DNA of 64,000 nt from Candidatus Saccharimonadota bacterium (GTDB lineage Bacteria > Patescibacteriota > Saccharimonadia > Saccharimonadales > UBA4665). Below, piece by piece: positions 21,429-31,455 of this stretch (the stretch's first letter is position 1; each line of letters begins with the position of its first letter). The stretch covers positions 1 through 64,000 of the forward strand of contig JAGORO010000001.1 in NCBI GenBank assembly GCA_018062785.1, read 5' to 3'. The translations under genes were made by a program, and so were the position numbers. The notes under the pieces are model-generated. The model ran no database searches, was not told the origin of the DNA, and worked only from the letters and a program-made list of their open reading frames with translations.

Positions 21429-21830
21429 TTAATATACTTGGCAGATTAGCTCGCCGCCAACTCCTTGTTGCTTGGCTTCTTCACCGGTCATAAGGCCCTT
21501 CGAAGTCGAAATGATCAGTATACCTCGACCACGCTTGACCTGAGGTACTTCGCGGGCGTTGGTGTAAGCGCGTCGGCCTGGCTTGCTCAGTCGCTTAATC
21601 TCGGTAATCTTGGCGTTTTCACCCTCGAGATTAATGACGATTTTGAGCTGCTTGCCAACGGTGAGGTCACTGACCTCTACGTCGTGTAAGAAGCCGTTAT
21701 TGCGCAAGGAGATTGCGACGTTTTCTTTGATCTTGCTGTGTGGCAGGCTAACTTCGCTCTTCCCAACGGCAATTGCGTTGCGAATCCGAGTTAGCATGTC
21801 TGCAATTGGGTCTGTTGTTGTGACGCTCAT
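21429..21830 (-). CDS. rpsH: Ribosomal protein S8
   Basis: 133 aa. TDPIADMLTRIRNAIAVGK at the start and ISTSKGLMTGEEAKQQGVGG at the end are standard. One base separates it from rpsN. S8 represses the spc operon in E. coli by binding near rplE; I cannot confirm that site here. Confidence 0.97.
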   Translation of the reverse strand: MSVTTTDPIADMLTRIRNAIAVGKSEVSLPHSKIKENVAISLRNNGFLHDVEVSDLTVGKQLKIVINLEGENAKITEIKRLSKPGRRAYTNAREVPQVKRGRGILIISTSKGLMTGEEAKQQGVGGELICQVY

Positions 21831-21831
21831 A

Positions 21832-22101
21832 TTACCAGCTCGCTTTCGTTACACCAGGGATTTCGCCCTTGCTTGCGTGTTCTCGGAATGCAATACGACT
21901 CAGGCCAAATTGACGCATGTACGCGTGTGGTCGACCAGTCTCTACGCAGCGGTTCTTCCAGCGGGTTGGGCTGGAGTTGCGTGGTAGTTTTGCAAGACCG
22001 TCGTAATCACCGAGTTCTTTTAGTTCTGCTCGCTTCTTTGCGTACTTAGTGATCATCTTCTGACGCTTGAGGTCGCGAGCAAGGATTGATTTCTTTGCCA
22101 T
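21832..22101 (-). CDS. rpsN: Ribosomal protein S14 (zinc-independent type)
   Basis: 89 aa long form. [21 protein letters not shown] and the [24 protein letters not shown] region are typical. The CxxC zinc pairs of the short form are missing, so it needs no zinc. Confidence 0.97.
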
Positions 22102-24018: not shown

Positions 24019-24432
24019 CTATGCACCCTCCCTTACCAGGAATTTAGTCTTTACGGGTAGCTTGTGTGCAGCAAGTCGCATTGCTTCGCGAGCAACTTCT
24101 TCTTGCACGCCCTGCATTTCGAACATAACTGTTCCAGGTCGCACCTTTGCTACGAAAAATTCTGGATTACCCTTACCGCTACCCATCTTGACATCAAGGG
24201 GCTTGCGAGTAACAGGTGTGTGAGGAAAAATACGGATCCAGATCTTACCACCACGCTTAATGTGACGGGTCATTGCCTGTCGGGCAGCCTCGATCTGACG
24301 CGAAGTGATTCGCTCGTGTCCTTGAGCCTGAAGAGCGTATTGGCCATAGGCAATGTAGTTACCAGCGGTAGCCACGCCACGGATCTTGCCCTTGCGGACC
24401 TTTCGGAACTTGGTTCTCTTAGGCAACAACAT
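24019..24432 (-). CDS. rplP: Ribosomal protein L16
   Basis: 137 aa A-site protein. [19 protein letters not shown] at the start and [20 protein letters not shown] are diagnostic. Start at 24432 is supported by GGGGG nine bases upstream; longer frames run back inside rpsC. Confidence 0.97.
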
Positions 24433-24433
24433 C

Positions 24434-25060
24434 TTATTTGTCCCCCTTGTAGATCCAGACCTTGACGCCGATGACGCCAGCAATAGTCTGGGCGCGAACG
24501 CCTGCGTAATCGATATCCGCACGGATAGTGTGGAGAGGCACCGAGCCTTGTGCTTCTTTTTCGCGTCGGCTCATTTCTGCGCCATTGAGTCGGCCAGCAA
24601 CTTCGATTCGGATACCTTTAGCACCGGCACGCATAGTAGCTGCAGCAGCGCTCTTGATAGCGCGGCGGAAGCTCATACGACGCTCGAGCTGGTGGGCGAT
24701 GTTCTCGGCCACGAGTTTTGCGTACATGTCTGGCTTTTTGACTTCTTCGATATTGACGCGCACCGGTACGCCGTAGACTTTCTCGATTGCGGCCTTGATC
24801 TCCTGCGCGCCTTGACCGCCACGACCGATAACAACACCGGCCTTAGCAGTAGCGATTGTTACGGTAACGAGGTTGGGTGAACGCTCGATGTCTACTTTGT
24901 TGATTGCGCCACGAGAGCCAAACTTGTCCTGTATGAGCTTGCGGACCTTTAGGTCAGCAGCGAGGTAGCTAGCGTATTCACGCTTGCCAACGAACCACTT
25001 GCTTCGCCAGTCTTTGTTGGCCTGGAGACGCATAGAAATGGGGTTAACTTTCTGTCCCAT
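24434..25060 (-). CDS. rpsC: Ribosomal protein S3
   Basis: 208 aa mRNA-entry protein. [20 protein letters not shown] starts it. The KH domain has [15 protein letters not shown] and the C-terminal domain [20 protein letters not shown] 25060 is preceded by GAGGAGA. Confidence 0.97.
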
Positions 25061-27824: not shown

Positions 27825-28448
27825 TTATTTCTCCTCCCCTTTGATAATTACAATGCCTTTGCGTGGGCCCGGAACGGCACCGACCACACCGATGTAGCCC
27901 TTGTCTACGTCGACAAGTGCGACGTGCAAGTTACGTACGGTGACTTGCGTTGCGCCCATCTGACCAGCCATTTTCTTGCCCTTCAGGATGTGCTGAGGGT
28001 ACATCGAGCCGATCGAACCAACCTTACGGGTGTTACCCTTACCACCGTGGGTTTTGCGCTGTCGGTGGAAGTTGTGCCGCTTGATAGTACCAGCCCAACC
28101 CTTACCTTTACTCGTACCAGTGACGTGCACAGTGTCGCCAACAGAAAAGACCTCGGCGGTTAGTTCTGCTCCAACCTTGAGGTCTTCGGTGATTTCATCA
28201 ACGCGAAATTCGCGCATAATCTTTGGCATCTTCTTGCTATTTTTTAGGTGACCGACTTGCGGCTTTGCGGTTTTATCTTGTTTTGCTTCCTCAAAACCAA
28301 CCTGTACGGCTGTGTAGCCATCGGTTTCGTCGGTCTTGACCTGCGTAATTACGCAGGGACTAGCGGAAAGCAGCGTCACAGCCTGAACAGTACCATCTTC
28401 TGCAATGGTAGAAGTCATGCCGATCTTTCTCGTAATGAGTGCCTTCAT
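27825..28448 (-). CDS. rplC: Ribosomal protein L3
   Basis: 207 aa. MKALITRKIGMTSTIAEDG and the GTSKGKGWAGTIKRHNFHRQ loop with THGGKGNTRKVGSIG are characteristic. First gene of this transcript because rpsJ has been separated. SD AAAGGA lies four bases before ATG. Confidence 0.97.
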   Translation of the reverse strand: MKALITRKIGMTSTIAEDGTVQAVTLLSASPCVITQVKTDETDGYTAVQVGFEEAKQDKTAKPQVGHLKNSKKMPKIMREFRVDEITEDLKVGAELTAEVFSVGDTVHVTGTSKGKGWAGTIKRHNFHRQRKTHGGKGNTRKVGSIGSMYPQHILKGKKMAGQMGATQVTVRNLHVALVDVDKGYIGVVGAVPGPRKGIVIIKGEEK

Positions 28449-28541
28449 AGTGTCCTTTACGGTTATAGTTAGTGTTACTTTTCAACGACATTTATGCCTT
28501 GTACATTGACATAAAAATATTGGTGGCAAGCGGTTTCGCCC

Positions 28542-28562
28542 CTGTAAATGTTTGTTTTACAG
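28542..28562 (-). promoter_or_regulatory. Hairpin in the rplC leader
   Basis: CTGTAAA/TTTACAG with a seven-base loop in a leader of about 155 bases between the promoter and rplC. A candidate autoregulatory site by position only. The rest of 28449-28612 shows no gene beyond a six-codon ATG frame. Confidence 0.4.
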
Positions 28563-28612
28563 TCTTGACCTGTCTCACATCACCAATCAAATCATTGATT
28601 CGTACCTAACAG

Positions 28613-28640
28613 AGTATCACGAAAACCTAACTCCTGTCAA
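28613..28640 (-). promoter_or_regulatory. Promoter of the rplC-rplO operon
   Basis: Perfect TTGACA (28635-28640), 16 bases, GATACT (28613-28618); TACTCT two bases further downstream with an extended TG is an alternative. It lies just upstream of the 3' end of the protease-like gene. Confidence 0.65.
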
Positions 28641-28658
28641 GGTGTTGCAAAAACTACA

Positions 28659-29597
28659 CTACCGTGTAACTTCTGGGTTGTTGAGTAGCGACGCCTCGCT
28701 GTCTAAAATTTGCTCGGCGCATGCGGCTCGTCTACGGTGTCTCACTGCTCGTGCTGCAGATACGATTGCAGCTCCACCTAGTGACGTCACGACAATATCT
28801 GTCATCATTGTCTCTTGGTAACCAGTTTTTAGTGCCGCACCAAGCAACACTGCCGCTCCACACTGCGCCCAGCAAACCCCAGACTCAATGCGTTCGTTAA
28901 TCATTTCAGAGCGAAGATTAGGATAGGTGTGCATGGTAAAAGCTCCTTGTAGGCTGCTACTAGTACTGATTGTATGATAGCTAGACATGCCAGCACTTTG
29001 CAAGTGGTGTGTTAGTCCTAAGCTACGACAAACTTCAGAAACTAGTGCATTACTGTGCCACGCAGATCGTACGAAGCTCTGGGCTATTTCTTCTGCACAT
29101 GGGCCACAAAATTCTCCTTGCGGGGTGCTAGTTTCGGCGTAACCGTTCATGACACGGCCGCCAAGCACGCAGTGATCACTATCGTTTTTGGGTGAAAACG
29201 GTGGCCTTAACCTCACCAAGTGAGCAAACTCGTGAATTACGGTCTTGCGAATCGTATTCGGATTACGCGCGTTATTATTGCCAGTCCAAGCACTTGCCCA
29301 TCATCTGGCGCCACGACTGTGCCGAGCAAATCGTTCATCCCCGTACGCCCGAGTTTGTAATCCTGCAGTGATCTCCGCGTGAGCAACATACTTGAAATTT
29401 GGCAAGCATTCGAAGTTTACATCATCTAAGCGTAGTTCACGCCGCTTATCACAACCACACCGAAGCTCACCGTATTCGACGGGGATGACTTGTTGGCCGC
29501 TAATTATAGAAATGTACCCTAGACCTTCTTCTACTTTTTGTATCTGCTTTGATAGGCTCACTGAATCCTGAAATATAGCAACTTCGAACTGCTTCAC
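28659..29597 (-). pseudogene. Archaemetzincin-like zinc protease with an in-frame TGA
   Basis: Read through one TGA (29301-29303), this 313-codon frame encodes an N-terminal part of 98 aa and then a metalloprotease core. The core has VIHEFAHLV (the HExxH zinc motif), a downstream DHC...RVM and an FCGPC pair. That order (HExxH, HC, xM, FCxxC) resembles archaemetzincins (peptidase M54), although the third His is further away than usual. The C-terminus has hydrophobic stretches (about 230-290). The part after TGA has no start codon before HExxH, so the active site is lost unless the stop is read through. Start GTG, weak SD. It lies between rplC and rpsJ. Confidence 0.6.
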
Positions 29598-29649
29598 GAA
29601 TTCGCTGTAGCAGATGAATCAATATAGCGTCAAATCAAGACAGCTAGTA

Positions 29650-29922
29650 CTAAATACTCACGAATAGACCATAGGGGGCAAGATAGCCGAATAGTGCCGC
29701 GACAACAATGACTGCGTATTCGATTTTGCGATCGACCCTAAAATGCTCGTGTGCCGTAAACATCAGTGCAATGATCGCTCCGATTGGTATCGGTATCTGT
29801 AAGTTGTGCGTTGTGTGAGTAATTTTGAGCCACATCGAGCCCATGATGACGTACAGCACCATCTTAAGGACAAATGCGCCATCAAAATCAATTGGTTGGG
29901 GTTTTTGTTTTCGTTTTGCCAT
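29650..29922 (-). CDS. Unknown small membrane protein, 90 aa
   Basis: Basic N-terminus (MAKRKQKPQP) followed by three hydrophobic segments (about 17-34, 43-58 and 69-88), suggesting an inside N-terminus. No domain recognised. A TATAAT box lies six bases before the ATG with no SD, so the mRNA is probably leaderless. The protease-like gene follows 52 bases later and may be co-transcribed. Confidence 0.6.
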   Translation of the reverse strand: MAKRKQKPQPIDFDGAFVLKMVLYVIMGSMWLKITHTTHNLQIPIPIGAIIALMFTAHEHFRVDRKIEYAVIVVAALFGYLAPYGLFVSI

Positions 29923-29928
29923 ACCCGA

Positions 29929-29934
29929 ATTATA
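29929..29934 (-). promoter_or_regulatory. -10 box of the 90 aa gene
   Basis: Perfect TATAAT six bases upstream of ATG; -35 not clear. Confidence 0.5.
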
Positions 29935-29952
29935 TCACAGTTGTATCTATTT

Positions 29953-30879
29953 CTAAGCTCGCACTACACTCATGAGTATCTGCCCCGAGAGTGGAACAAA
30001 AGCCGTTGTTACGCCCCTATCCTCGCGTAGTGCGCGCTCGAGCGGTCGAACAACAGGGTTTGCCCAAGCTTCCTCGCTATGTTTTGTAAATACAGCTGCA
30101 TTCCCATCGTATTCAGCTTGCGCTTGTTCCAGTGTCGGTAAAGCTTTTTGCACGCCACCATCCAGTTCACCACTGAGTACCAAGAACCTACCTTGGCCAA
30201 AAAGCCGTACGGTCGTGCCGCTCTGTGAATTGGTGACGTCCGCATAACGGCTGCGGCGGCATACGATATGCGCTGGAACAGTGCCTTTTTCGTCTGCCAA
30301 TGAGCTCATTGGAGTCAGACGGTAAGTAGGCGAGCTACGGACCTTGTCCGTATAGTCATGAACCTCCAATAAATTCTCGGCAGATGCAATAATTCCGTTA
30401 ATGTGTGTCTTTAAAGCACCAAACTTATCCCAATCTCCCGCTTGGCGGACCCCACCCCACTCAACAGTTACTTGCTCTAATCGCCTAATTCCTAGCGGTG
30501 CCGGAAGCTCAAAAGCACGGTTTGCTACCGATCCTAGAAATTTGATAAACTCACCCGCTGCCTTGGGCTTACCGGCTAACTCAAGGTATTCAACAAAGTG
30601 CGGACCATCGAGACTAAGATAACCCATGTTACCCTTTTGACTGAGCTGCCTCTTGGCGCCATCAATAAGTGTCGCATGGTTTACGTACTCAAGATAGGTA
30701 GCTATCTGCTCGGGAGTCCGAGCATGAGCCATGAATCGATCTTTGAATGCTTGTGACTCTACATTGTCAAGGGGTGTAATCATGCGAGCAGGCCAACCCT
30801 GCTCTTCGGGGTGATCAAGACCAGGTAGGCTCGTAAATTGTTTCGGCTGAAGCTCGGGGCTTATTTCTGTCATCGTCAT
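29953..30879 (-). CDS. Unknown protein, 308 aa
   Basis: Soluble protein without signal or membrane segment and no domain I recognise. The N-terminal half (about 40-130) is helical; the middle has LTPMSSLADEKGTVPAHIV and a beta-rich stretch TTVRLFGQGRFLVLSGEL. Start at 30879 (ATGACGATG; the second ATG is also possible). It has a promoter with a perfect 18-base palindrome over the -35 box, suggesting specific repression. Part of the insertion between rpsJ and rplC. Confidence 0.6.
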   Translation of the reverse strand: MTMTEISPELQPKQFTSLPGLDHPEEQGWPARMITPLDNVESQAFKDRFMAHARTPEQIATYLEYVNHATLIDGAKRQLSQKGNMGYLSLDGPHFVEYLELAGKPKAAGEFIKFLGSVANRAFELPAPLGIRRLEQVTVEWGGVRQAGDWDKFGALKTHINGIIASAENLLEVHDYTDKVRSSPTYRLTPMSSLADEKGTVPAHIVCRRSRYADVTNSQSGTTVRLFGQGRFLVLSGELDGGVQKALPTLEQAQAEYDGNAAVFTKHSEEAWANPVVRPLERALREDRGVTTAFVPLSGQILMSVVRA

Positions 30880-30885
30880 TGTCGT

Positions 30886-30914
30886 ATTATATCATACTTA
30901 TAGACTTTTGTCTA
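30886..30914 (-). promoter_or_regulatory. Promoter of the 308 aa gene, leaderless
   Basis: TAGACA (30909-30914), 17 bases, TATAAT (30886-30891), six bases to ATG. Confidence 0.65.
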
Positions 30915-30916
30915 TA
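30899..30916. promoter_or_regulatory. Palindromic operator candidate
   Basis: TATAGAC-TTTT-GTCTATA, a perfect 7-4-7 inverted repeat covering the -35 box of the 308 aa gene. Typical geometry for a dimeric repressor; the regulator is not identified. Confidence 0.5.
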
Positions 30917-30917
30917 C

Positions 30918-30951
30918 ACACAAAACCCACCTATTACAGTGGGCTTTGTGT
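30918..30951 (-). terminator. Terminator after rpsJ
   Basis: ACACAAAGCCCAC pairs with GTGGGTTTTGTGT (one mismatch). The T-run is imperfect but the position, just after the rpsJ stop, fits. Confidence 0.55.
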
Positions 30952-30959
30952 TCTACTGA

Positions 30960-31289
30960 CTACATCTTGATTTCGACGTCACAGCCTGCAGGCAAGCTGA
31001 GGTTCATGAGGCTATCGATAGTCTTTGGCGTTGGCTCAAACACGTCGATAAGACGCTTGTGAATACGCATTTCAAACTGCTCACGGCCCTTCTTATACAC
31101 ATGAGGGCTTTTAACTACCGTAAAAGTACTTTTACGGGTTGGGAGAGGGATTGGCCCAGCTAGGCTTGCGCCAGTGCGTAGCGCCGTCTCGACGATCTGC
31201 TTGGCGGCTTGATCGATAATCTTGTGGTCGTAGGCCTTTAGACGAATACGAATTCGTTGCTTTCCAGCCTCTGTTTTGGCGTCTGCCAT
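30960..31289 (-). CDS. rpsJ: Ribosomal protein S10 (NusE)
   Basis: 109 aa. [20 protein letters not shown] and [19 protein letters not shown] identify S10; [12 protein letters not shown]-like segment present as [16 protein letters not shown]. Unusually it is not followed by rplC: it has its own promoter, a 165-base leader and a terminator. Also an antitermination factor with NusB/NusG. Confidence 0.97.
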
Positions 31290-31455
31290 AGTGGTAAATC
31301 CTCCGGATTTATTAGGTTATAGGTTGTAGGCTATAGGTTATAGTCGCTAGACCGCACCTGCCTATATAAACCGTCGGAACGTACCGACATTGGCACTGTA
31401 ACCTCTTGACGATCTATATAGAAACCGGCACGAGTTCTCAGCACAATAGTTTACG
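31290..31455 (-). other. rpsJ leader
   Basis: About 165 bases between the predicted start and the ATG. It contains GTCGG-TACGTT-CCGAC, two TATATAG palindromic patches and a short repeat of AGGTTATA (31311-31341, seen also at 39431-39456). SD GGAGGA precedes the ATG. Structure suggests regulation; no known motif. Confidence 0.4.

Follow-up and report, generated by a model that had tools for sequence, protein, structure and literature searches.

The 64,000-nucleotide stretch of DNA analysed here (hereafter the window; contig C13 of a 22-contig, 862 kb genome assembly of a Candidatus Saccharimonadota bacterium) contains upstream of rplC what is most probably a decayed archaemetzincin-like gene. 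A single-domain, archaemetzincin-like zinc peptidase would once have been encoded between a membrane-type gene and rplC, in a gene that is now presumably dead. In the present sequence, its coding frame shifts and then shifts back, with an internal TGA as a consequence, and one structural cysteine as well as the glycine of the HExGH motif are missing. As it stands, this copy cannot give an intact enzyme. We infer that the sequence is free of errors here and that no other product is expressed from the gene.

The coordinates of the relevant features are collected in Table 1. Following the TGA, the minus-strand frame encodes VIHEFAHLV and then HC, VMN and FCGPC, in this order along the joined frame, and on the plus strand this stretch is interrupted by many stops. 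The frame with its single TGA upstream of VIHEFAHLV, HC and FCxxC had been described in the original prediction and is seen as such in the translation. The open tail past FCGPC is longer than in the relatives and has two hydrophobic stretches when inspected by eye; it gave no family match and no Pfam match above the cut-off.

Table 1. Features of the rpsJ-rplC region (positions in the window).
Feature	Position	Strand	Remarks
rpsJ	30960-31289		
Joined frame	29597-28659	-	GTG start at 29597; single internal TGA; from translation
N-terminal part of archaemetzincin-like gene	29372..29597	-	frame 1, GTG start; end uncertain by ~10 codons
Off-frame middle stretch	29283..29371	-	codon signal best in the frame shifted by one base; both ends approximate
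TGA	29301..29303	-	within the off-frame stretch
C-terminal open frame, 213 codons	28662..29300	-	active-site part and tail
HEFAH, zinc-binding HExxH	29220..29234	-	Ala where 25/25 relatives have Gly
HC...R-V-M...FCGPC	29097..29174	-	third His, Met-turn Met, three of four structural Cys; Arg at second Cys position
VMN	29145-29153	-	Met-turn methionine present; within C half
Tail past FCGPC	28662-29096	-	~145 open codons
Promoter-like TTGACA...GATACT	28640-28613	-	just downstream of the presumably dead gene, upstream of rplC
Structured RNA leader	28491-28608	-	upstream of rplC
rplC	27825-28448		

With the family profiles, which were built without the window, the C half (28662-29300) scored best of all 2388 stop-to-stop segments in the window, at E 6.7e-4 and 7.3e-4. 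The N half came third when the subgroup profile was used, with an E of 1.3 that is not significant, and the wider family profile did not list it at E 10. In the subgroup profile, it matches positions 5-64. In the shuffle control with the pieced protein, the real score of the N part was reached by 6 of 2000 shuffles and that of the C part by none of 500. Furthermore, homologues spanning both halves were found: the alignment of the window copy with the full-length genes of two other genomes (G084 and G024) covers both. Judged from these comparisons, the origin of the two halves from one ancestral gene is supported. Searches with the single sequence returned the window only, both in the genus (1/7 genomes) and in the family (1/93) at E 0.001, and also in the phylum (1/379) at E 0.01; they found no relative in viral_contigs or genome_contigs, and viral_contigs gave no match with the A6 profile either. 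Nothing above the cut-off was found in Pfam, NCBIfam or PHROGs for the window pieces or the pieced protein, and the pieced protein alone had no match in the PDB at E 10. A loose core search (E up to 10) matched eight of the 93 family genomes, i.e., the window's own, G084, G024 and five others; the matches in G001, G017, G018, G028 and G082 were not relative-like on reading.

When the 392 genomes of the order were searched with a profile seeded with the G084 and G024 genes plus three others, 38 matches were obtained, in 35 genomes. These correspond to 30 loci (eight matches were without a locus), of which 28 were examined (L062 and L063 were left out). The full motif HExxH...HC...C-x-M...CxxC is present in 25 of the 28, so that the look-up of intact orthologues proposed in the original prediction yielded 25 genes in 25 of the 392 genomes. 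As these relatives were picked by the motif pattern, the His, Glu, Cys and Met that they share follow from the selection itself; the glycine within HExGH was not a selection criterion and is present in all 25. One of these genes, with HExxH and four cysteines, is a paralogue in the window's own genome (L035, G000:C6:28424-28999), located between obgE-like and exonuclease-like genes (names by reading). Among the sibling genomes of the genus, only G002 has a motif-bearing archaemetzincin, elsewhere in its genome (C28). A second set of nine loci from genome_contigs has the motif in 9/9; eight come from Candidatus Saccharibacteria records and one from Candidatus Levybacteria (L073), and four of the proteins also belong to the 25 (as L043, L044, L046 and L047). 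Members of the Saccharibacterial archaemetzincin family are L035, L036-L056, L058-L060 and L065-L073. Besides these, one locus (L057, G485:C31:40295-40474) is a C-terminal archaemetzincin remnant inside its contig, with all four cysteines and no HExxH. It is a second degenerate copy and suggests that such genes decay elsewhere too.

The original prediction had linked the loss of a zinc enzyme to the zinc-poor character of the other proteins encoded here. The rpmJ product (L36; window 16069, minus strand) is indeed of the cysteine-free form, but the zinc-economy argument fails because the same genome keeps the intact zinc-site paralogue.

The profile of the 25 relatives, built without the window, ranked the solved archaemetzincins first among the known structures (AfAmzA, 3zvs, E 2.6e-14, and 4axq, 3.1e-14; MkAmzA, 2x7m, 5.9e-14; the Methanocorpusculum protein, 3lmc, 3.5e-10), with other metzincins next, from E 1.7e-6 (among the best 60 of 112 matches at E 1). 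The model of one intact relative (L065) was confident (pLDDT 89.3, pTM 0.88). Its top four Foldseek matches were all archaemetzincins, at E 1.8e-7 or better; they were the only ones below E 0.001, and the next match was at 0.041. With VIA, the model reached Z 15.7-16.8 with four archaemetzincin entries versus 11.8 for the next metzincins (note that the absence of a family from the fold comparison list carries no meaning). By the profile and the predicted structure of L065, the window gene and its intact relatives thus appear to be archaemetzincin-like, and the original prediction was right in this respect. The Pfam M54 cut-off was reached by none of the five relatives scanned (L035-L039), one of which (L038) just reaches that of Matrixin (24.1 vs 24.0).

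The archaemetzincin fingerprint is given as HEXXHXXGXXHCX4CXMX17CXXC in PMC3427221. The fold, HExxH, the later His-Cys, Cys-x-Met and CxxC are common to archaemetzincins (MEROPS M54) and the intact relatives, but in the Saccharibacterial family HExxH and HC stand 3 to 15 residues further apart (manual count). The window copy retains the HExxH zinc helix as HEFAH. The stretch HExxHxxGxxH is not preserved: the window has HEFAHLVRL, with the next histidine 16 residues after the second, and the relatives also carry an insert at this place. In HC-x4-C-x-M-x17-C-x2-C, the window copy has only three of the four cysteines. It differs from M54 archaemetzincins also in having alanine for the HExGH glycine, and it is broken, its domain being interrupted by the TGA and the off-frame middle instead of lying in a single open frame. 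A divergent archaemetzincin with the motif in common is AMZ-tk of Thermococcus kodakarensis; according to PMC4681839, it is an intact, proteolytically active enzyme, unlike the window copy.

The frame change was followed with a three-periodic codon model, for which 58 ORFs of the window served as the training set; it picked the true frame in 335 of 348 cross-validated 28-codon stretches. In 20-codon windows along the gene, frame 1 scores highest for starts from 29612 to 29402, the next frame for starts from 29387 to 29312, and frame 1 once more for those at 29297 and 29282. Over 29371-29283, frame 1 scores -12.8, the next frame +7.5 and the third -18.9 bits. An off-frame difference this large was seen in 12 of 15831 control windows, all within two ORFs (plus-strand 21583-21984 in the ribosomal-protein cluster, and the start of ORF 24022-24522), both non-genic at these places according to our own reading. 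Beyond 29282, frame 1 is best in most 20-codon windows, including most of the tail; exceptions are 29252-29193 over HExxH, where the third frame scores above frame 1 (0.9 vs -4.0), and two tail windows in which the second frame is narrowly best. These scores show that the coding frame moves at ~29371 and returns by ~29283, and that the TGA is a by-product, because it falls in the off-frame stretch. Homology agrees with this but does not prove the frame of the middle: with the next-frame middle the protein aligns to the subgroup profile in one piece (positions 6-162) at 22.3 bits versus 20.3 for the read-through, but 446 of 2000 shuffles of the middle score as well, and the wider profile shows no improvement (15.4 vs 16.0 for the read-through).

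It follows that the two ORFs are not simply one frame interrupted by a nonsense codon, as had been proposed. Frame 1 is otherwise open on either side of the TGA, as would be expected for a plain nonsense or recoded TGA inside one intact frame; given the codon scores around it, and given that TGA is a working stop in this genome, closing 7 of the 59 ORFs in the window that are non-overlapping and 120 aa or longer, this reading is extremely improbable. More serious, although still rather unlikely, is that the gene is unbroken in the living cell and the two opposite frame changes are sequencing or assembly errors. They lie ~90 bases apart and restore the frame, as paired indel errors would, the 213-codon C half is open and the genome is a multi-contig assembly. 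However, neither the change of the invariant HExGH glycine nor that of the second structural cysteine is a frame error; furthermore, of the 58 other ORFs in the 64 kb, only the two taken as non-genic have an off-frame window as strong.

The broken gene might also act as a working pseudo-protease or regulator, with the C half, or both halves, made as separate proteins. A precedent is CarG of Myxococcus xanthus, a catalytically dead archaemetzincin homologue (PMC3427221); CarG and the window copy would both have an archaemetzincin scaffold without protease function, but in CarG the catalytic glutamate is replaced in an otherwise working protein, whereas in the window copy the glutamate is kept and the frame is broken. 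The C half is open over 186-213 codons and keeps three histidines of zinc-ligand type, the methionine and three cysteines. Against this, the N half corresponds to the region that supplies strands and the backing helix to the fold in the L065 model, the model of the read-through window copy is poor (pLDDT 52, pTM 0.44; the distant alignment may partly account for this), and the C half as a query matched only itself in the 7 genus and 93 family genomes. A CarG-like role by analogy is therefore very unlikely, and it is highly improbable that selection maintains the C-terminal frame as a separate, non-catalytic protein derived from an archaemetzincin, bearing a new tail and produced within the ribosomal-protein gene cluster.

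Decay of the gene is thus the preferred reading, although an open C half of this length, with frame 1 leading in most of its tail, would be unexpected in an old pseudogene. A tree of 26 rows places the window copy together with L038, L039, L042, L056 and L060 (support 96/91), L039 being its nearest row (pair support only 86/66). The end branch of the window copy is 5.51, against 0.19 for L039 and a median of 0.82; this length may come partly from the pieced sequence. The intact copy of the same genome stands in another part of the tree (the branches are long and the placement is unsure), so the window copy does not look like a fresh duplicate. A segmentation of the window assigned 28482-29652 entirely to non-coding sequence; most direct frame changes in it were at joints of the listed ORFs, as judged by eye, and a few were among short ribosomal-protein ORFs outside that list, so this gene need not be the only broken one in the window. 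The codon bias of the two window parts (0.085 and -0.014 bits per codon) is low compared with the gene median of 0.226, but it does not demonstrate decay, because two intact archaemetzincins are equally weak (0.093 and 0.018). No close strain of the window species was found, and the decay is therefore undatable.

Between rpsJ and rplC, the window has a 308-aa ORF, a 90-aa membrane-type ORF and the archaemetzincin-like gene. The original prediction had spoken of an insertion separating rpsJ from rplC; the gene does lie there, but the gap is not peculiar to it, as the siblings have other ORFs before rplC. A relative of the 90-aa protein (90-103 aa) precedes rplC in five of the seven genus genomes (G000, G002, G003, G004 and G005) and was not found in those parts of G001 and G006 that were read. 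The other ORFs of the slot vary by genome (one of 146 aa in G003, one of 408 aa in G001 and two, of 148 and 133 aa, in G006), and none of the sibling ORFs listed before rplC is an archaemetzincin; the sibling interval was read fully back to rpsJ only in G003. In this genus, the rpsJ-rplC stretch (window 28449-30960; L006-L011, L077) has the look of a cargo slot with variable content.

More notable than the broken protease gene is the leader of rplC. The promoter-like element and the structured leader are kept in all seven genus genomes. The leader has 21 pairs, six of them changed on both sides among the seven sequences; in these, none of 500 shuffles reached the covariation score, and 21 of 500 had at least as many doubly changed pairs. 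With a covariance model, the leader was found in 9 of the 92 genomes searched of the family and in 4 of the 99 of the order, two genomes being common to both sets. This makes 11 places, namely the seven used in the model and four weak others (E 3.5e-4 to 6.3e-3), all 11 immediately before rplC. Rfam gave no match even at E 5, and our search of the open-access literature found no paper joining Saccharibacteria and a ribosomal protein leader. A promoter and terminator scan of 28400-31300 was not clearly richer than shuffles (5 vs 3.8 and 4 vs 2.6, respectively). Probably, the element is an autoregulatory ribosomal-protein leader. The dead gene would not be expected to disturb the ribosomal genes, because rplC has its own conserved promoter-like element and leader.

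By itself, the broken gene matters little, being most likely a case of ordinary decay in a known protease family. It also calls for caution with joined frames, in which a stop may simply result from frame changes. However, it led to an archaemetzincin family in Saccharibacteria, for which no paper was found in the open-access literature searched. This family is present in at least 25 of the 392 genomes of the order and is missed by Pfam M54 in all five members tested, and its intact members could be assayed.
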